Shown here: positions 1,826 through 25,622 of the stretch, in pieces
How the letters are laid out: every line of letters starts with the position of its first letter
Position numbering within the stretch: the stretch's first letter is position 1
DNA from: an uncultured Desulfobacterales bacterium
Lineage (GTDB): Bacteria > Desulfobacterota > Desulfobacteria > Desulfobacterales > JAHEIW01
Direction: 5' to 3'
Length of the DNA: 33,480 nucleotides
NCBI GenBank assembly: GCA_947259495.1
Contig: CAMYLV010000037.1
Location: 1-33,480 of the forward strand
Program-made: the position numbers and the translations under genes
Notes under the pieces: generated by a model
The model's input: only the letters and a program-made list of their open reading frames with translations
Database searches by the model: none
Told to the model about the DNA's origin: nothing

Positions 1826-3715
1826 CTACTTGGGTGCCAGCAGCAGCAGGCCCTCATCGGTATTCAAATCCATCCTGAAGCGGCGCAAAAAATTCAAGCC
1901 CAGCAGCCCCACATTGGGTTGATTGGGAAGATCCATCACCAGCGCTCTTACATTGTTGACTTCAAATCCCTCAAGCGCGATCGAATCCAAGACGACTTCA
2001 GGCGCATAAAGCTCACCGCTGGCTGTATAGACTTTCCGGCGCGGGTTGCGCACCGATATGACAATGCCAAGGGTTCTGACGGTTGAAAAGGGAATGGTGA
2101 CCATCGATGCGCCTGTATCAACAATAAAATCTTGAGCGGCTTCCTGATTGACTGAGGCTGTCACCGGTATTTGGCGAGTGCCGGGCGCAAACCGGATGAC
2201 GATCTTGGCCTCCTGGCCTTTTAGTTCGGAAATCGCAGACTGCAGGCCTCTAACCTCATTCCTGAATGCCGGTGGATAATCTTTGGCCGCCAACAAACGT
2301 TCCGCCGTTTCCCAATCATTTTCTGCCAGGGCCAATTTTACACCGAACAGATATATATTAAGATCATCCGGCAACTGCTGGCCACCGCGCGCATAAACCT
2401 GCCAGCCGGCCTGGATATCACCACCTTCAAGCAACTCATTCAGCCAGCTTTGATAAAGTCCGGAGTGAAGTTCGTTCAGCTGGGTTCTTTCCTGGTCGTT
2501 TTTAGGCGCCATTGATTCGATAGCGGTTTCCATTAAATCGATTGCTTCTTCCTGACCATCACTTTGCGCCGTTAGGACAACCACATCCAAAATCAAAGAA
2601 ATATCGCCTGCCTGAGCGAGGACTTCGGCATCAAAGGAGTTGGTCGCCTGGGCGCCAAAACCTTCTTGAACCGCACGCGATAGCACCAACCGCAATTGGC
2701 TGATGACCGCTTCGATTTTCAGGTAACCTGGCGTTTGGGCGGCCGATAGCTTGGGTTCAAAGCGAAACGCACGTGTAAATGCCTCCAGGCGATCTGAATT
2801 CGAATACTCGTCACCTAAGGCAAGCGCCCGCACAAACTCTTCTTCCCGGCTGTTGGCGAAGCTGAGTCGATAATAGTCGTCGACCCGGATATCCGCTATT
2901 AAATTGCGCCCCTCCTCCCCGGTCCACAAAAAAGCGCCGGCGTCTGGATCGCCGAAGGTCCAGCCCACCACGCGACCCTTCTGAATAAATACGCCGGCAT
3001 CGTTTATATCATCTGAAACGACGCCTTTAATAAAATTGCCCTGAGCCGTGACATTCCCGATATCGATCCGCTCCGGCGGGTCCGGAGATCTGAGTGCCAT
3101 CCAGGTCAATGGTTTACCTGCCGACCAGGGATGCAGATCCGGACTGTCTAAACTTTGATCCTCCCGGATTCGCCAGAGACTGATTTGTTCCAGGTCGTTT
3201 ACAATGCCGCCTTCGATTGTCTGACTAGCTCTGGAATCCAGCTGAAGAACCCAGCTGTATCCGCCGAACGTCAGGCGGGTGGGTAGAGCAATCCAGCCGC
3301 CGCCAACCACGGGCACCGTAATTTCCGAAAGCAGATTTCCGGCAATATCTCTGATGCGCAGCAATCCGATCGGAACATTAATGGGTTCAGCCTCGCCAAC
3401 TGCGTCGGCTTTCACAAATAATGCCTTCTCGGGTAACGGCACTGGCTCGCGTTTGGGTATTGCCTTTTCTGCAGAAGCGGTTTTGGTTTTTGAAGACGGT
3501 GGACTGATGCGATTTGAATCGTAATAGAAATAAAGCAGGCCCACGACAAACAGGATAAATACCACAACGGGGATCCAGGTCCGGCTTGTCTTTGAGGCCG
3601 GTGCCTCATGTAGGGCTGCACCGCAATTGTAACAAATATCAGACTCAATGGGATTTTTAACGCTGCATTGAGGACAGTCGATTATTTTTTCGTCGTCGGC
3701 TGGTTCAATATCCAT
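1826..3715 (-). CDS. Zinc-ribbon, membrane-anchored retropepsin-like aspartyl protease
   Basis: This 629-residue protein has three visible parts. An N-terminal zinc ribbon has four cysteines (Cys14, Cys17, Cys28, Cys31 in CPQC..CYNC). A single membrane segment spans about 48-65, which puts the long remainder outside the cytoplasm if the N-terminus is inside. A C-terminal retropepsin-like domain carries the active-site motif IVDTGASMVTIP (Asp533) and the hydrophobic motif GLLGLNFLRRF near the end, as in the gag-asp_protease/TIGR02281 type. The middle (about 85-500) is unassigned and helical, possibly with TPR-like helices around 360-510. A single-domain retropepsin should act as a homodimer. 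The substrate is unknown. Confidence 0.8.
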   Translation of the reverse strand: MDIEPADDEKIIDCPQCSVKNPIESDICYNCGAALHEAPASKTSRTWIPVVVFILFVVGLLYFYYDSNRISPPSSKTKTASAEKAIPKREPVPLPEKALFVKADAVGEAEPINVPIGLLRIRDIAGNLLSEITVPVVGGGWIALPTRLTFGGYSWVLQLDSRASQTIEGGIVNDLEQISLWRIREDQSLDSPDLHPWSAGKPLTWMALRSPDPPERIDIGNVTAQGNFIKGVVSDDINDAGVFIQKGRVVGWTFGDPDAGAFLWTGEEGRNLIADIRVDDYYRLSFANSREEEFVRALALGDEYSNSDRLEAFTRAFRFEPKLSAAQTPGYLKIEAVISQLRLVLSRAVQEGFGAQATNSFDAEVLAQAGDISLILDVVVLTAQSDGQEEAIDLMETAIESMAPKNDQERTQLNELHSGLYQSWLNELLEGGDIQAGWQVYARGGQQLPDDLNIYLFGVKLALAENDWETAERLLAAKDYPPAFRNEVRGLQSAISELKGQEAKIVIRFAPGTRQIPVTASVNQEAAQDFIVDTGASMVTIPFSTVRTLGIVISVRNPRRKVYTASGELYAPEVVLDSIALEGFEVNNVRALVMDLPNQPNVGLLGLNFLRRFRMDLNTDEGLLLLAPK

Positions 3716-7527: not shown

Positions 7528-8109
7528 ATGGGCTCAAATGTTCCGACCCGTGAAGAAGCGCTGGCACTTCTGAAACAATATAACAAAAACGAAAGCCTCA
7601 TAAAACATGCGCTGGCGGTGGAAGGCGTCATGCGCTACATGGCTCGCAAGCGGGGCGGCGACGAGGAAAAATGGGGGGTGATCGGCCTGATTCATGACCT
7701 GGACTATGAGCAGTTTCCGGATCAGCACTGCAAAAAAACAGAGGACATTCTGAAAGAAAATAATTGGCCGGAAGAATACATCCGTGCGGTGGTCAGCCAC
7801 GGCTGGGGAATTTGCAGCGATGTCAAGCCCGAATCGGATATGGAAAAGGTCCTATATGCCATCGATGAACTGACCGGACTGGTAGTCACTTCCGCACTGG
7901 TACGACCCTCTAAGAGTGTCATGGACATGAAGGCCAAATCGGTTAAAAAGAAATGGAAACAGAAACAGTTTGCCGCCGGCGTCGATCGATCAATCATTGA
8001 AAAGGGCGCCGAAATGATGGGGGTGGAGCTTTCCGAGCTGATCACCGACACCATCATGGGCATGCGTGAAGTCGCAGAAGAAATCGGTCTGAAAGGCAAC
8101 GTCGAATAA
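7528..8109 (+). CDS. HD-domain (HDIG-type) hydrolase-like protein
   Basis: This 193-residue protein carries an HD fold. His27 (LIKHALAVEG), the HD pair His56-Asp57 in GLIHDLDYE, His91 (VVSHGWG) and Asp113 (YAIDELTGL) form the expected metal-ligand series. HD proteins of this size are usually phosphohydrolases acting on nucleotides or related phosphates; the substrate cannot be read from the sequence. The ATG follows GAGGAGGAGGAATTCAC, one of the strongest ribosome-binding sites in the window. The stop is 3 nt before a 274-bp repeat. Confidence 0.85.
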   Translation: MGSNVPTREEALALLKQYNKNESLIKHALAVEGVMRYMARKRGGDEEKWGVIGLIHDLDYEQFPDQHCKKTEDILKENNWPEEYIRAVVSHGWGICSDVKPESDMEKVLYAIDELTGLVVTSALVRPSKSVMDMKAKSVKKKWKQKQFAAGVDRSIIEKGAEMMGVELSELITDTIMGMREVAEEIGLKGNVE

Positions 8110-8112
8110 AAA

Positions 8113-8386
8113 TCACCGCAAAGGCGCAGAGATCGCAGAGAGAAAGTTTCTTTGCCTTGTCACTGAGACGCCGACAAGGCAAAAACAGCTCAACCCTGCG
8201 GGTTATAAATAAAACTTTTTCTCAGAATAATTATTCCAGCCTTTAATTTTGCCAAAGTAGCGGTTAATAAAGGTGATTTTAAATCTGCATGATATTTGCC
8301 GCAGGCAGATTGATTTTTGCTTTCCGTCCTCTCAACGGAAAGCAAAAAGTAATTATATCTCTACGGACTCTGAGTCTTTGCGGTGA
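8113..8386. repeat. 274-bp structured repeat with terminal inverted repeats, copy A
   Basis: The ends are imperfect inverted repeats (TCACCGCAAAGGCGCAGAG at the left, the complement of TCACCGCAAAGACTCAGAG at the right). Inside, in order, are a hairpin TTTGCCTTGTC/GACAAGGCAAA (8151-8183), a small hairpin AACCC-TGC-GGGTT, an ATCTGC/GCAGAT stem (8283-8310) and a perfect 14-bp stem TTTTTGCTTTCCGT with loop CCTCTCA (8314-8348). Copy B lies at 15302-15574 with the same order and length. No ORF is convincing. It fills the gap between the convergent HD and MFS genes. Confidence 0.85.
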
Positions 8387-8397
8387 GCTATCTCAAA

Positions 8398-9777
8398 TTA
8401 ATCATCCGGTCGCAGGCGCCCGCGGTAAAGCGAAAAGAAAATCCCTCCAACGCAAAAGCATGAAAATATAATAAACGCTACCCGCACGCTTTTGATCAGC
8501 ATCGCATAGGATTGAGGCGTAATCTGCGCCCGTCCGATATAGCGCGCAAAAATCAGGGTCACAATCCCCATACTCAACATCTGCCCTAAAAGTCTCATGG
8601 TTCCTACCGATGCGGAGGCAATCCCGTAAAGACGCTTATCCACCGAACTCATAATGGCATTCATGTTGGGAGACGAAAACAGGGCAAAACCAAAGCCCAG
8701 AATCATCAGACTGGCAATAATGTAAGCCAGGGTCGTATGCGCATTCAGTGCAATTAAAAGCACCAGCCCCAGTGCCGTCAGGCCCATACCCAAAGATGAA
8801 ATCACGCGCGGCTCGACCCGGTCGGAGAGCCGGCCTGCAAGCGGAGAAAAAGTGGCCATCATAATCGGCGTTGACACCAGCACCACACCCGCACCCTGGG
8901 GCGATAAGCCTTTGATGTATTGCAGATATAAACTGAGTAAAAACCCAACTGCAAAGGTGGCACTGTAATTGATCAGCGCCGCCAAACATGAAAACGCGTA
9001 CGTCCGATTTGTAACAAACAGATTGACCTCAAATACCGGGCTCGCCACCACCAACTCCCATCTCGCAAAGGCCAGCAGCCCCACAACCCCAGTTAGGATT
9101 AAAATAATACTCATTGTCGCCGGCAGAATGGATATGCCGTACATAAACGCGAAAATGGCGGTGCCGTATATGATGGAGCCGGTTAAATCAAATTTTTGAC
9201 CCGGCAGGCCTTTCCATTCACCTTTTAGTTTAAAAACGATAAGCAGGATAATGAGCACGCCGAAGGGAATGTTGATCAGAAAAAGGCTGCGCCAGCTGAG
9301 ATGATGGGTTAAAAACCCGCCGAAAAACGGACCGCAGGACAATCCGATGTAAACTGCTGCCACAGCAATTCCCAGCACCTTTCCGCGTTCTTCAATCGGA
9401 TATACCGAACTTAAGATCGCAATTCCGGTGGCAAAAACCATGGCACTGCCGGCGCCCTGAAATATCCGATAAATGATCAGCATGGGCGCCGATGTCGCAA
9501 AGGCAGACAGAAGAGATGTCAGGGTAAAAAGCGACATACCGAGCATATAGATTCTTTTGCGACCGTAAATATCGGCCAGTTTGCCAAACGGCACCAGAGA
9601 CACGGCCGCTGCCAGCAGATAAGATGTCGCCACCCAACTCAAGACCACGGCATCGGTTTTAAATTCTTTTCCGATCACCGGCAGCGCAATATTGATCGAA
9701 GAGATCATAAAGGGGGTAATAAATGAACTCAGCGATGCAATCGTTAGGGCAGTTAATTTTGTGGCTCTGTCATTCAT
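8398..9777 (-). CDS. MFS drug/proton antiporter, EmrB/QacA (DHA2) type
   Basis: This 459-residue protein consists almost wholly of membrane helices. Motif A of the major facilitator superfamily reads GKLADIYGRKRIYM, and the motif-C-like segment of antiporters reads GLSCGPFFGGFL. The WRSLFLINIPFGV stretch is typical of DHA2 drug:H+ antiporters. It should sit in the inner membrane and export small molecules; the substrate is unknown. No EmrA-type adaptor or TetR-like regulator is adjacent. Translation ends 12 nt from the right end of repeat copy A. Confidence 0.88.
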   Translation of the reverse strand: MNDRATKLTALTIASLSSFITPFMISSINIALPVIGKEFKTDAVVLSWVATSYLLAAAVSLVPFGKLADIYGRKRIYMLGMSLFTLTSLLSAFATSAPMLIIYRIFQGAGSAMVFATGIAILSSVYPIEERGKVLGIAVAAVYIGLSCGPFFGGFLTHHLSWRSLFLINIPFGVLIILLIVFKLKGEWKGLPGQKFDLTGSIIYGTAIFAFMYGISILPATMSIILILTGVVGLLAFARWELVVASPVFEVNLFVTNRTYAFSCLAALINYSATFAVGFLLSLYLQYIKGLSPQGAGVVLVSTPIMMATFSPLAGRLSDRVEPRVISSLGMGLTALGLVLLIALNAHTTLAYIIASLMILGFGFALFSSPNMNAIMSSVDKRLYGIASASVGTMRLLGQMLSMGIVTLIFARYIGRAQITPQSYAMLIKSVRVAFIIFSCFCVGGIFFSLYRGRLRPDD

Positions 9778-11537: not shown

Positions 11538-11557
11538 AATTTTCTCCTTCTTAACAC

Positions 11558-11771
11558 CCGAATTTTGCATGAAAATTAATGCGAAGTTGAGATTAAATTT
11601 TCACCCGACAGGCGCGCCGCAAACTTCCATCTGCTGCTTTATTCAGGGCGAAGCATAGTTAACTATAGCTTCGCCCTGAAGTATCCCGTTCCGTTGGATG
11701 ACGCATCTGAATTTTTAAAGTTAAGGAGCGTCTCCTTGCATGTGAAAGCCTCCGACTCGTGCAAAATTCAG
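11558..11771 (-). repeat. Structured leader repeat, copy 2
   Basis: Read on the minus strand, this begins CTGAATTTTGCACGAGTCGG and ends CATGCAAAATTCGG, with the terminal inverted repeats of copy 3. The inner hairpin CAGGGCGAAGC/GCTTCGCCCTG is perfect; in copy 3 the same position is AAGGGCG/CGCCCTT, so an A:T pair has become C:G. The right-hand stem is partly deleted. The 3' end lies 20 nt before the degP start codon, leaving just room for the ribosome-binding site. Confidence 0.8.
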
Positions 11772-11939
11772 TTAATAATAATTAATCGCAATAGAAACTA
11801 TTGGTTTCAAATAGTAGTTTGTCAAGATAACCTCAAGATGACCATAAAATGATCAAAAAGTTATTTTGGGAGCGGAATCCATTCGACACAAAGGGACAAA
11901 TCAGACAAAAGTTGCCGATTTAACAACAAGTTATCGGAG

Positions 11940-12019
11940 TGATGGAGTCGTGGAGTAATGGAAAAATGAAAGGGGAAAATTCCAATGATTTCAAAGAATC
12001 CCAACGCTCCAGATTGGAG
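11940..12019. repeat. TGGAGT/TTCCA short interspersed array
   Basis: Repeated units TGGAGT, TGGAA, TTCCA and CTCCA occur on both strands between the histidine-kinase stop and the degP leader repeat. The remaining 11772-11939 is AT-rich and shows no gene. Confidence 0.4.
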
Positions 12020-14120: not shown

Positions 14121-14205
14121 AGGATTCTCCGATACGATTTCGAAGCCAGTTGCTTATAGATAACTTGTAAATGGCATAAGGTAAATTGAAATGAAAATTT
14201 ATTAA

Positions 14206-14358
14206 ACTGCGTTTTCATTCATAAATGAGGGATTTTTTTGATGAGCCCGGCCGCACAAGGGGTTTAATTCAAGGCGTACTTAAAGTACGTTGAGGATTAA
14301 ACCCCGCGGAGAACAGAGCTCATCGCAAAAATAGCAATTTAGGAATGAAAACGGCCGG
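14206..14358. repeat. Nested palindromic element at the 3' end of prmA
   Basis: Outer arms (GTTTTCATTC at 14211 and GAATGAAAAC at 14343, extending inward to GATGAGC/GCTCATC) enclose an inner hairpin GGGGTTTAAT/ATTAAACCCC with a tip CGTACTTAAAGTACG. The prmA stop codon and its last few codons lie in the right outer arm. It may serve as a terminator for prmA. A related nested design is at 27742-27844. Confidence 0.65.
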
Positions 14359-15262
14359 CAATGGCTGCCCACTCTTCTAGTTCGCGTATCTCCAATATTT
14401 CAAACCCCATATTTTTCATCCCGGCGGCCACCAGTTTTTTATTTTCTGCAAACATCCCCGAGCAGACGAAAATGCCGCCTCGAACCAGGGTCCGGGGCAG
14501 ATCATCCAGCAGTTCTATAATCACATGGGTAAAAATGTTGGCTGCAATAAAATCATATTTTTCCGTGATACCCGTCAGAAGATTGCCGGTCTGCAAAAAA
14601 AAGTCGCCGGAATCCAGCCCGTTCAGCTTGAGATTGGCGGCCGCCACATCTACGGCTGCCGAATCTTTATCAAGACCGCAAACAAAACCCGCGCCCAGCT
14701 TGGCTGCTACAATCATCAGTATGCCGGAGCCGGTACCGAGGTCTAAAAACGAATCGCCCTGATTAAGATAATCTTCAATCAGACGAATGCATAAAGCCGT
14801 GGTCGGGTGAGTTCCGGTACCAAATGCCATGCCGGGATCCAGTTCCAACACGATATCGCCGGGATGCTCTGTGTAAGCGCACCAGGAAGGTTTGACGACT
14901 ATTTTTTGCCCGATTTTTTGGGGCTCAAAAAAAGCCTTCCAGGCCTCGGCCCAGTCTTCTTCATCCAGTTCTTTATAACTGACACGATAAAGCAGCACAA
15001 AATTCTTTTTTAAAAGAGACAGTTTTTTTTCCAGCGCCCTGCAGCATTTTTTGGCCTGCCGGTCTTTTGGAAAATAACCGACCAGCGCGTGCTGCTTCGC
15101 TCGACCTATCGAGTCCTCAGCCCAGCCCCCGGTCGGCTCTATCGCCGGGTCCTCTTCGACCAAACCTTTCAGGTCGAATTCGAAAAACAGGTTGGTAATG
15201 AGTTCGCCAGCAAGGTGATTGTCCTCGGCATCAAATACAACTTTTGCTTCAATCCATTTCAT
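14339..15262 (-). CDS. prmA: Ribosomal protein L11 methyltransferase
   Basis: This 307-residue enzyme methylates lysines and the N-terminus of ribosomal protein L11 using S-adenosylmethionine. The N-terminal substrate-recognition domain opens KWIEAKVVF. The signature GMAFGTGTHPTTALC is followed by the SAM-binding loop LDLGTGSGILMIVAAKLGA and FIAANIFTHVI. The frame is open to 15370, but that extension translates repeat DNA; the ATG at 15262 fits the family start. The last residues (GRFHS) are encoded by an arm of a palindrome. It may be transcribed after the radical SAM gene across repeat copy B. Confidence 0.9.
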   Translation of the reverse strand: MKWIEAKVVFDAEDNHLAGELITNLFFEFDLKGLVEEDPAIEPTGGWAEDSIGRAKQHALVGYFPKDRQAKKCCRALEKKLSLLKKNFVLLYRVSYKELDEEDWAEAWKAFFEPQKIGQKIVVKPSWCAYTEHPGDIVLELDPGMAFGTGTHPTTALCIRLIEDYLNQGDSFLDLGTGSGILMIVAAKLGAGFVCGLDKDSAAVDVAAANLKLNGLDSGDFFLQTGNLLTGITEKYDFIAANIFTHVIIELLDDLPRTLVRGGIFVCSGMFAENKKLVAAGMKNMGFEILEIRELEEWAAIAGRFHS

Positions 15263-15301
15263 ATTAGAAATTCTCACCGCAGAGACGTATAAGATGTTTT
15301 T

Positions 15302-15574
15302 TACCGCAAAGACGCAGAGTTCGCAGAGAGAAAGTTTCTTTGCCTTGTCGCTGAGAGGCCGACAAGGCAAAACAGCTCAACCCTTCGGGTTATAAATTAA
15401 ATTTATTCTTAAAATTATTCATCCAGTCACTAATATTGCTAAAATAGTGCTTAACGGATGTGATTTGTTATCTGCTCGATACTTGCCAAAGGCAGATTGT
15501 TTGGTCTGATTTCCCCTCTCAGGAAATCAGACCAAGAAAAAATACTCTCTGCGATCTCTGCGCCTCTGCGGTGA
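15302..15574. repeat. 274-bp structured repeat, copy B
   Basis: This has the same order of parts as copy A: terminal inverted repeats ACCGCAAAGACGCAGAG / CTCTGCGCCTCTGCGGT, the identical stem TTTGCCTTGTC/GACAAGGCAAA, a small hairpin AACCC-TTC-GGGTT, an ATCTGC/GCAGAT stem and a perfect 14-bp stem TTGGTCTGATTTCC with loop CCTCTCA (15501-15535). The final stem matches copy A at only about 4 of 14 positions yet pairs fully. A lone terminal fragment (CACCGCAGAGACG) lies at 15275-15287. The element lies between the radical SAM stop and the prmA start. Confidence 0.85.
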
Positions 15575-15577
15575 ATC

Positions 15578-16894
15578 CTAAAATTTCTCCTTGGGTGGGT
15601 TGAAGTAGCCGAATTTGATATTCGGAAATTCCTGCCGGATGTGTTCCAGCAGATTCTGCATCCCGATGGGTGTGTCATTTCGGGCCACACCATTCATTAT
15701 CTCAAAATATCGCAGCGGATCGAAATTCAAGTTGCGCCACTGGATCATGTGAATCGGGTATGACTTTAAAAAACTTTTCAATGCTTCTATTTCCATTGGT
15801 GTATCCGTAAACCCGGGACAATTTAAATAATTAACCGCCACAAAAAGACCGCTCCTCAGAGCAATATCCATGCTTTTCAAAACATCGGAAAACCTATAGC
15901 CTTTCGGGCGAAAATAGGCCTGATAACACTCCTGGCGCACACTGTTCATGCTGACCCGGATGCTGTCCAGCCCGGCATCGATCACCTGTTGTAATGCTGG
16001 CTGCAGGCTGGCGTTGGTGTTCATATGAATGGTGCCCCGGGCCGTTTCAGAACGAATCAAACGAATCGCCGGTGCAATTACCTTCGCCGCCAGCAGCGGG
16101 TCACCTTCGCACCCCTGTCCGAAACTGACCACACTTTTTTTGACCCGTTTTATATGCACCAGAGCCATTTGCGCTATTTCTTCCGGTGACGGAGTGAAGC
16201 CGATGCGGTCCTGGCTGTTGGGAATATCGCTGTGTTTCTGTAATGACAAGCACCCCAGGCAGCGGGCATTGCATTGTTTGGCGGTGGGCAATGGCGCTTC
16301 ATAGCGGCCCAGAAAAAAATTTTTAGCCGCCGGGCACCCGAACTGCAGGGCACATTTTTCAAGATGGGCCCTCAAGCGATTGGCAGGCATCTGTTGGCGC
16401 ATCATGTCGATGCCGAAAGCAACATCATCTGGTTTCATCAACCGCAGGTCCTGTCGCTTTTCCCGATCCACACGAATAACCGCAGATCGAAATTTGCCCC
16501 GGTGCCATCCCACAGCACCATAGGAAAAAAGCGGCAGCGTTCGTGATTTTTGTTTTTCAACATAAGTACCCAGTTGCGAAATGACATAACCCGGTGAATT
16601 AAATGCGGTCACCGGAAATAGCGGCTGGCCAGGAGCGTACGGGTCTTCATTTACGGTTTCAATCCGGCCCGATTGCAAATTCAACAAAACCGGCCGGCGT
16701 TCCGGCAGGTACATCAGTTCGCTGCCAAAAGGCATGTTGCGGGTATTGTTCAGCGTCAGCGGTGTTGGCGTTGTCCCGTCCGTCCCAACTGCAGCATAGC
16801 CGTCGAGCTCAAAAATTTCTCCGGCCGCATTGGCCACCAGCGCAGTCAACAAACCAATCTTCCTTTTAGCTGATTTTAGTTCATTTTTCTTCAA
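15578..16894 (-). CDS. Uncharacterised radical SAM protein
   Basis: This 438-residue protein has a 4Fe-4S binding motif of the form Cys-x3-Cys-x2-Cys (CNARCLGC, about residues 210-217), later the segment SFGQGCEGDPLL in the place of the glycine-rich SAM motif, and MNTNASL and VNYLNCPG as expected for a radical SAM barrel. About 200 residues precede the cluster motif, more than in most family members, and contain no domain I recognise. No substrate is proposed. The start is a TTG with only a weak upstream AGG. It follows the receiver/PPDK-N gene by 43 bp and is probably co-transcribed with it. Confidence 0.82.
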   Translation of the reverse strand: MKKNELKSAKRKIGLLTALVANAAGEIFELDGYAAVGTDGTTPTPLTLNNTRNMPFGSELMYLPERRPVLLNLQSGRIETVNEDPYAPGQPLFPVTAFNSPGYVISQLGTYVEKQKSRTLPLFSYGAVGWHRGKFRSAVIRVDREKRQDLRLMKPDDVAFGIDMMRQQMPANRLRAHLEKCALQFGCPAAKNFFLGRYEAPLPTAKQCNARCLGCLSLQKHSDIPNSQDRIGFTPSPEEIAQMALVHIKRVKKSVVSFGQGCEGDPLLAAKVIAPAIRLIRSETARGTIHMNTNASLQPALQQVIDAGLDSIRVSMNSVRQECYQAYFRPKGYRFSDVLKSMDIALRSGLFVAVNYLNCPGFTDTPMEIEALKSFLKSYPIHMIQWRNLNFDPLRYFEIMNGVARNDTPIGMQNLLEHIRQEFPNIKFGYFNPPKEKF

Positions 16895-22410: not shown

Positions 22411-22603
22411 TGCTATGAAATTGGAGTGTTGGAATGTTGGAGTAATGCAGTCCTGGGTTTTATAAATAAATGAAACCCTATTTATCCTGTAACTACATCA
22501 TAATTTATTTTGGGATCAAGTAATATATTCTTGGATAAGAGAGCAATTATGCAATCCCCCTGATTATACCTTGATTTTGCCCCTCTTTTTTCTTAAGCTA
22601 AAA

Positions 22604-22855
22604 CCTGAATTTTGCACGAGTCGGAGGCTTTCATATGCAAGGCACTTAAGGGCGAGGCTATAGTAAACTATGCTTCGCCCTTAATAACGCAGCAGATGGA
22701 AGCCTCCGGCTCGCCCATCGGGTGAAAATTAATGAGATAAAATGATTTTTATCCATTATACTTGAACGGTAATTTATTGTACTTCTATAATATGCTTAAC
22801 GTGCTGTCTTTAAATAGAACCTAAACTTCTCATTAATTTTCATGCAAGATTCAGG
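22604..22855 (+). repeat. Structured leader repeat, copy 3 (full form)
   Basis: Terminal inverted repeats CCTGAATTTTGCA and TGCAAGATTCAGG bound the element. Inside are GAGTCGGAGGCTT/AAGCCTCCGGCTC, the hairpin AAGGGCGAGGC/GCTTCGCCCTT and the stem TGAAAATTAATGAG/CTCATTAATTTTCA. The last differs from copy 1 by compensated base pairs. It fills the gap between the divergent moaB and mobA and ends 12 nt before the mobA start. The rest of 22411-22603 holds a TGGAGT array and no gene. Confidence 0.82.
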
Positions 22856-22867
22856 TAATTAGATATC

Positions 22868-25391: not shown

Positions 25392-25460
25392 ATTAATTAC
25401 GGATCCATGACCTAAACAAAGGTAATCCATCGTGGGGTTTTCAATTTCAATTAATTATGG

Positions 25461-25496
25461 ATTATTGGAGTACGGGAGTGATGGAGTGATGGAGTA
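25461..25496. repeat. TGGAGT short interspersed array
   Basis: ATTGGAGT, GGGAGTG, ATGGAGTG and ATGGAGTA follow each other with an 8-nt period in the gap 25392-25622 between mltA and tatB. Nothing else was recognised in that gap except the GAGGGACC ribosome-binding site of tatB. Confidence 0.5.
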
Positions 25497-25622
25497 AAGA
25501 CGAAAAGACGCTTCAAGAATCCATTCGCCAAGCGGTTATCCTTGACACTTGTAACCGAAACCAGTACTAGACAGCTTTTTAAAAGCTCTTAAATCCATAA
25601 GAAAAATCACCAGAGGGACCTC

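Follow-up and report, generated by a model that had tools for sequence, protein, structure and literature searches.

Hairpin stems that change in sequence and remain paired in a dispersed family of probable miniature mobile elements of Desulfobacterota

In a window of 33,480 nucleotides (the whole stretch of DNA analysed here, from an uncultured Desulfobacterales bacterium), two copies of a 274-bp repeat, A and B, close with hairpins that share a loop and little of their stems. The last hairpin of A (positions 8314–8348) reads TTTTTGCTTTCCGT / CCTCTCA / ACGGAAAGCAAAAA, and that of B (positions 15501–15535) reads TTGGTCTGATTTCC / CCTCTCA / GGAAATCAGACCAA; the pairing is perfect in both, and the 5' arms are identical at 4/14 positions. 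The question raised by this locus is how a stem can change so much and stay paired, and what kind of element carries it. The sequence-only reading had located both 274-bp copies correctly, except that the start of the terminal inverted repeat (TIR) of B is better set at 15303, and its description of the last hairpins (identical loop, both stems perfectly paired, 5' arms 4/14 alike) was confirmed. The features of the two elements are as follows.

8113–8386, no strand assigned: element A, complete, without a gene; used as a query it has 18 places in its own genome (100% query cover)
8113–8140, plus strand: left TIR of A, three CGCARAG-type units
8151–8183, plus strand: left hairpin of A, stem TTTGCCTTGTC, loop ACTGAGACGCC
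8192–8204, plus strand: small inner palindrome of A, AACCC-TGC-GGGTT (by eye), with different but still paired arms in other members
8314–8348, plus strand: right hairpin of A, stem TTTTTGCTTTCCGT, loop CCTCTCA
8359–8386, minus strand: right TIR of A
15303–15574, no strand assigned: element B, complete, without a gene; genome G003 has the site without the element
15303–15328, plus strand: left TIR of B, with a partial second TIR copy immediately upstream (~15270–15288)
15339–15371, plus strand: left hairpin of B, stem TTTGCCTTGTCG, loop CTGAGAGGC
15501–15535, plus strand: right hairpin of B, stem TTGGTCTGATTTCC, loop CCTCTCA, the putatively exchanged end module
15547–15574, minus strand: right TIR of B

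Folded as single-stranded DNA, A and B reach z-scores of −9.2 and −10.1, respectively, which 0/200 shuffles equalled. Element A occupies the gap between the convergent ORFs 7528–8109 and 8398–9777, and B stands in front of ORF 15578–16894. The neighboring ORF 14339–15370, as listed, extends into B and has a TTG start; comparison with G003 suggests that this gene really starts at about 15262. The first-hairpin stem TTTGCCTTGTC is the same in A and B, so that the variation had been described as confined to one stem, which is true of this pair and fails for the family, where the first stem varies in other members. Likewise, the statement that no protein is encoded applies to A and B and not to their longer relatives, which carry a gene of the GxxExxY family.

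A and B are members of a dispersed family in Desulfobacterota, whose members are multi-copy, intergenic and bounded by TIRs. Element A finds matches in 28 of 96 genomes, its own included, some of these being matches to the TIR only. The TIR pattern occurs at 19 places in the own genome, versus 0 for the reversed pattern, and these correspond to about 12 elements, of which six have two hairpins and the remainder have one hairpin or a decayed end. The common layout is a TIR of about 28 nt, a hairpin of up to 14–15 bp with the loop TGAGAGG (read inward), a middle, and then the inverse; the TIR consists of three CGCARAG-type 7-nt units spaced 8–9 nt apart, and about 19 nt separate the TIR core from the stem. 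The element ends read T/CACCGC...GCGGTG/A in AT-rich DNA, with the T present at 62 and 64 of 68 ends. The hairpin-apex pattern gave at least 114 stretches in the genome_contigs collection, and a TIR lies nearby in 95 of those listed. All 11 listed records titled outside Desulfobacterota/Deltaproteobacteria (Klebsiella, Lachnospiraceae and others) are without the TIR, as are eight deltaproteobacterial records among the matches listed, six of which have a weaker two-unit match. By eye, the loop context CGCTGAGAG resembles the TIR unit CGCAGAG. In one member (L066, G002:C436, ~7590–7680) an insertion breaks the loop TGAGAGG of one hairpin and leaves both stem arms intact.

Across the family, the structure is kept while the sequence changes, and this is strongly supported. 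When units were picked by the TIR and the exact loop alone, 265 of 270 distinct units were paired at 11/14 positions or more; the count is 131/133 in the genome loci and 56/58 in the genome_contigs loci after removal of hairpins matching the search pattern. Arms dealt randomly among units reach 11 pairs in 28% of draws because the arms are T-rich. The alignment, which took in 90 of the 110 hairpins listed out of 151 distinct ones, has 94.6% paired cells against 66.7% when shuffled and 44–61% when the partners are slid, and its covariation score is 0.708 against 0.182 in shuffles (0/500 as high). The number of pairs changed on both sides (13) is a single measure that does not discriminate, being reached in 93/500 shuffles. 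Pairing is near-perfect, with 74 mismatches in 2880 cells, and the small inner palindromes also vary between members yet remain paired (by eye). The sequence-only reading had taken the A/B hairpins as a sign that structure is preserved despite sequence change; the covariation and the paired units bear this out. As a control within L001–L305, distinct TGAGAGG/TGAGACG loops without an upstream TIR comprise 144 that are paired at fewer than 11/14 positions and 21 that are paired at 11 or more (32/198 before deduplication); the well-paired ones probably belong to the family and have a TIR that has decayed or is of another kind.

The rare mismatches are uneven. On the TGAGAGG strand, 35 A-C and 11 G-T mismatches were counted over 117 distinct stems (p = 5 × 10−4, relatedness ignored). 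Since A-C mismatches on this strand are G-T wobbles on the opposite one, there is a hint that the relevant folded strand is the one with CCTCTCA, which extends to the element's 3' end, and that selection acts on one strand.

To separate A from B, we compared stems and middles in 26 two-hairpin elements (six from the own genome and 20 from G001), which gave 21 pairs with middles at least 68% identical. In these pairs the stems differ at 0–3/13 or at 9–11/13 positions and never at 4–8: both stems differ at 0–3/13 in 14 pairs, and the right hairpin differs at 9–11/13 in seven. All seven large jumps are one switch, from the GCTTTCCG type to the TTGGYCTGATTTCC type, in which the inner sequence ...GCAGATTG is kept; the only recipients are B and L311, and the 21 pairs are not independent. 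For example, L276 and L311, two elements of G001, have 92% of the middle in common, but 11/13 stem positions differ. The TTGGYC stem type is present in five elements (B, L010, L311, L312 and L318) and is accompanied by three kinds of left stem (GCCTTGTC, CATTTGTC, and the TTTAGTTTT type in three elements), which therefore points to exchange of a pre-existing end module, in at least two backgrounds. The difference between A and B is thus very probably a switch between two pre-existing hairpin lineages by module exchange. What had been counted as about ten paired changes is better read as a one-step swap of existing stem types, given the lack of 4–8/13 intermediates in the 21 pairs.

This bears directly on whether selection for the fold led to in-place rewriting of the stem, one compensatory substitution after another. 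Paired substitutions do occur within stem lineages (in the TTGGYCTGATTTCC type, for instance, stem position 5 has gone from T-A to C-G), and covariation is strong, as such rewriting would have it; however, no pair with related middles shows 4–8/13 stem changes, every large jump is between the same two types, and the grouping of the TTGGYCTGATTTCC modules suggests that they run across different left ends. In G001 and G002 the same two genes enclose, at the site of A, an element from a different subfamily that is oriented the opposite way. The stems of these two elements are identical and their middles 84% identical (78/93), which implies slower change in stems than in middles; A and B, by contrast, differ most in the stem. 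The G002 copy also has an insertion in one loop. Taken together, stepwise rewriting of the A/B stem is very unlikely. Alternatively, the arms could be kept identical, with little or no selection, by replication that switches templates from one arm of a quasipalindrome to the other, which could also write new stems in one step. This is a known process that homogenizes arms and makes multi-base paired changes (PMC8794818), and the near-perfect pairing of the family fits it. Arm copying alone leaves unexplained why five elements whose left ends are of three kinds have the same TTGGYC stem, and the excess of A-C over G-T mismatches, as if wobbles were tolerated on one strand, hints at selection on a folded strand. 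We therefore regard it as an improbable sole cause, which may contribute to maintaining stem pairing within a lineage. The sequence-only reading had also raised a variable tag matching other loci, which is unlikely: exact matches to TTGGYCTGATTTCC in the four genus genomes lie only in B, L311 and L312, and one-mismatch matches outside known elements number about 24 versus 13 for the reversed pattern.

The strong folding and covariation would suit a structured non-coding or cis-regulatory RNA with covarying hairpins, a reading to which we give hardly any credence. No Rfam 15 family reaches its gathering score in the window, where the matches by E-value are sub-threshold microRNA models only; the two ends represent a single module in inverted orientation; the arms read TTTT...AAAA, opposite to the order in an intrinsic terminator; and the sites differ between sibling species.

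The sites themselves point to mobile elements. The site of B in G003 consists of a few unrelated bases and no element. In G096 and G098 the second element of L085 is missing; the first site of L085 is taken up by a bare-TIR GxxExxY element in G096, by remnants in G098 and by a TIR-only stub in G089. Such element-free sites in sibling species support mobility, while single cases could be loss rather than gain; a within-species transposition event was not seen. Target duplications of 4–12 nt show no excess in 68 elements over seven boundary offsets, and the largest excess is a weak one at 3 nt (10/68 against an expectation of 3.1, with no correction for 77 tests). At the site of B in G001 (L283 ~1350–1500; G001:C4:219167–219316) there is a different mini inverted repeat of about 150 bp with CAGGTGT-like units, and this intergenic gap seems to have been hit by different elements. 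A TIR-bounded GxxExxY stretch adjoins a smaller inverted-repeat element (L292 and L299, G096:C35, ~2914–3534), and G028 has a hairpin element in that gap. Overall, it is very probable that A and B are members of a miniature mobile-element family.

The longer relatives indicate which gene may be involved. Among 102 two-hairpin elements, 97 have 64–248 nt between the loops and five have 482–647 nt. These five (L078, L128, L181, L253 and L260, all with more than 250 nt between loops) lie in four genomes, none of them the own genome, and GxxExxY is present in every one of them; no other gene was found in the longer versions. Their proteins are 47–61% identical, over the matched pieces, to the protein of L019 in the own genome. 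The frame is intact in three of the five, interrupted by an insertion in L181 and broken in L260. In six gene pairs drawn from L128, L253, L176 (on the contig of L078) and L185 (one hairpin seen), dN/dS is 0.07–0.13 in three, and dS is saturated in the other three.

PF13366 is over the cut-off in 4/4 proteins, and D66, E76, K78, Q90 and Y94, which we take to be the active-site motifs of Cas4/RecB-type PD-(D/E)XK nucleases, are invariant in six sequences. The predicted structure (pLDDT 93.1) has its best structural match in the Cas4-like SSO0001 (Z 9.2, rmsd 3.6, 101 aligned). Z is 5.5–6.8 for archaeal Holliday junction resolvases and similar for restriction enzymes, and the best Foldseek match has E = 3.5 × 10−3, with none at 0.001. 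Matches of a predicted model such as these speak for a shared fold, not a function. By sequence, the comparison with solved structures gave one chance match only (E = 1.1), and among viral contigs 12 pattern stretches yielded 0 confirmed GxxExxY proteins.

GxxExxY genes are also bounded by inverted repeats outside the hairpin elements. With a flanking repeat defined as one that beats all 100 mononucleotide shuffles, 43/56 genes are flanked overall versus 3/102 controls. In the relatives the count is 21/28 versus 2/48 shifted windows (29 loci, one with too little clean flank), and in the phylum-wide set 22/28 versus 1/54 controls; in both sets the loci are the best of the matches found. Inspected by eye, these repeats mostly consist of units of about 9 nt in runs (CACGAAG, CACAAAG, CACAGAG, CGCAGATTA, ACAGGAT and others), which are alike inside one element and different between elements, and a few flanks have longer palindromes or other repeats (L147 and L153). 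Hairpins of the TGAGAGG type lie within 250 nt of 2/29 GxxExxY loci in the relatives (L128 and L132) and of 0/28 in the phylum set, again among the best of the matches; the hairpin ends are thus a local variant, and the link between hairpins and GxxExxY rests on few gene-bearing hairpin elements. Among 58 genomes, GxxExxY is found in 15/16 with a match to A versus 22/42 without (p = 0.005, TIR-only matches included), the exception being G005, which has matches to A and no match to GxxExxY. One GxxExxY element (L134, G019:C76) has hairpins of another type (loop GGAGACGA), and a two-hairpin miniature copy of about 135 nt adjoins it.

The own genome has two GxxExxY genes, with the TIR units CACGAAG and CACAAAG, and no hairpin-bounded GxxExxY. 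A and B are most likely non-autonomous derivatives, and because the GxxExxY genes of their own genome have other TIR units and no hairpins, they may be stranded or moved in trans.

Of the described kinds of element, REP/REPIN sequences (moved by RAYT, TnpA-REP) come closest. As described in PMC3116915 and PMC3733652, these are, like the present family, short, gene-less, intergenic palindromic inverted pairs of hairpin-bearing ends, whose loops and spacers vary, with compensatory changes reported in spacers and single-strand folding supposed. By comparison, the palindromes of the present family lack a basal GTAG or CGTC tag (stem bases, by eye), and its elements end in T/CACCGC; it has long TIRs of about 28 nt outside the hairpins, and where its longer forms carry a gene, this encodes a PD-(D/E)XK nuclease in place of the Y1 HuH enzyme. 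By analogy, the family would work somewhat like a REPIN without being one. A Y1 transposase (RAYT) was also tried as a partner and rejected, as 0/3 Y1_Tnp genes of the own genome have the TIR (at most 6/25 substitutions, 1.5 kb on each side).

Like MITEs, the family has TIRs (at each end of A and of B), lacks a gene and occurs in many dispersed copies; its longer relatives have ends of this kind around a candidate mobility gene, GxxExxY, in five elements of other genomes and none in the own genome. The family differs from MITEs in that a target duplication of 4–12 nt was not detected in 68 elements, its gene is a small nuclease and no known transposase, and it has subterminal hairpins with exchangeable stems. 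Members of IS200/IS605 have subterminal hairpins, recognized in single-stranded DNA, and a Y1 HuH transposase, and they are not known to have TIRs; the present family resembles them in the hairpins and differs in having TIRs. The GxxExxY family itself (TIGR04256 / PF13366 PDDEXK_3) provides the gene of all five long hairpin elements and elsewhere also lies between inverted repeats, but most of its loci differ from the family in having other TIR units of about 9 nt and no TGAGAGG hairpins. In the open-licence literature we found no account of GxxExxY, PF13366, PDDEXK_3 or TIGR04256 as a mobile element, nothing on the TIR sequence, on hairpin miniature elements or on a nuclease with nonautonomous elements with subterminal hairpins, nothing related on bacterial intervening proteins, and, among the matches listed, nothing on miniature elements in sulfate reducers.

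The window contains other repeats. An intergenic palindromic repeat of about 140 nt (14205–14353), with at least dozens of matches in all four genus genomes, forms one long hairpin (z −7.4) and is unrelated in sequence to A and B. Two inverted copies of another intergenic element (81–97% by stretch) lie at 11549–11771 and 22605–22863, and their interior holds a palindrome around GGGCGAAGCATAGTTAACTATAGCTTCGCCC; positions 149–172 hold a further 24-nt piece of this element. Short arrays of GGAGTRATG-like units of about 8 nt (11936–11977, 22423–22456 and 25459–25508) are similar in style to the tandem-unit repeats that bound GxxExxY.

We propose that these are non-autonomous miniature mobile elements with exchangeable hairpin ends, moved by GxxExxY or by what it recruits, and we consider this explanation likely as a whole; that GxxExxY itself is the mobilizing enzyme is a slightly weaker presumption, though still a favored one. 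Each end would be a module made of the TIR and then a hairpin with a near-fixed loop, whose stem is free provided that pairing holds. GxxExxY, or machinery recruited by it, would recognize the TIR and the displayed loop in single-stranded or cruciform DNA and would mobilize gene-bearing and gene-less copies alike. If the TIR and loop are what is recognized, only the pairing of the stem matters, and stems therefore drift as pairs. Pairing would be kept by selection on the folded strand, by template-switch arm copying (PMC8794818), or by both. Recombination or gene conversion between copies would swap whole end modules via the shared TIR, loop and inner palindrome, and B would have acquired its right hairpin through such an exchange.

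On a broader reading, about which we are evenly divided, GxxExxY would define a widespread, undescribed class of minimal mobile elements, consisting of a PD-(D/E)XK nuclease of about 120 aa between inverted repeats of tandem units of about 9 nt, whose ends conserve self-similarity and not sequence, with units that resemble each other only inside an element and hairpin arms that stay matched while varying freely. A branch in Desulfobacterota would have gained exchangeable hairpin ends and spawned miniatures moved in trans by a nuclease that reads a loop on a freely rewritable stem. GxxExxY is a common family whose curated name is just a motif, and the repeats around 43 of 56 genes, together with the gene-less miniatures, make it a testable mobile-element gene. 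The hairpins of the family are in turn a natural data set on how stems change sequence yet stay paired, with paired drift and whole-module exchange both visible within one hairpin family.
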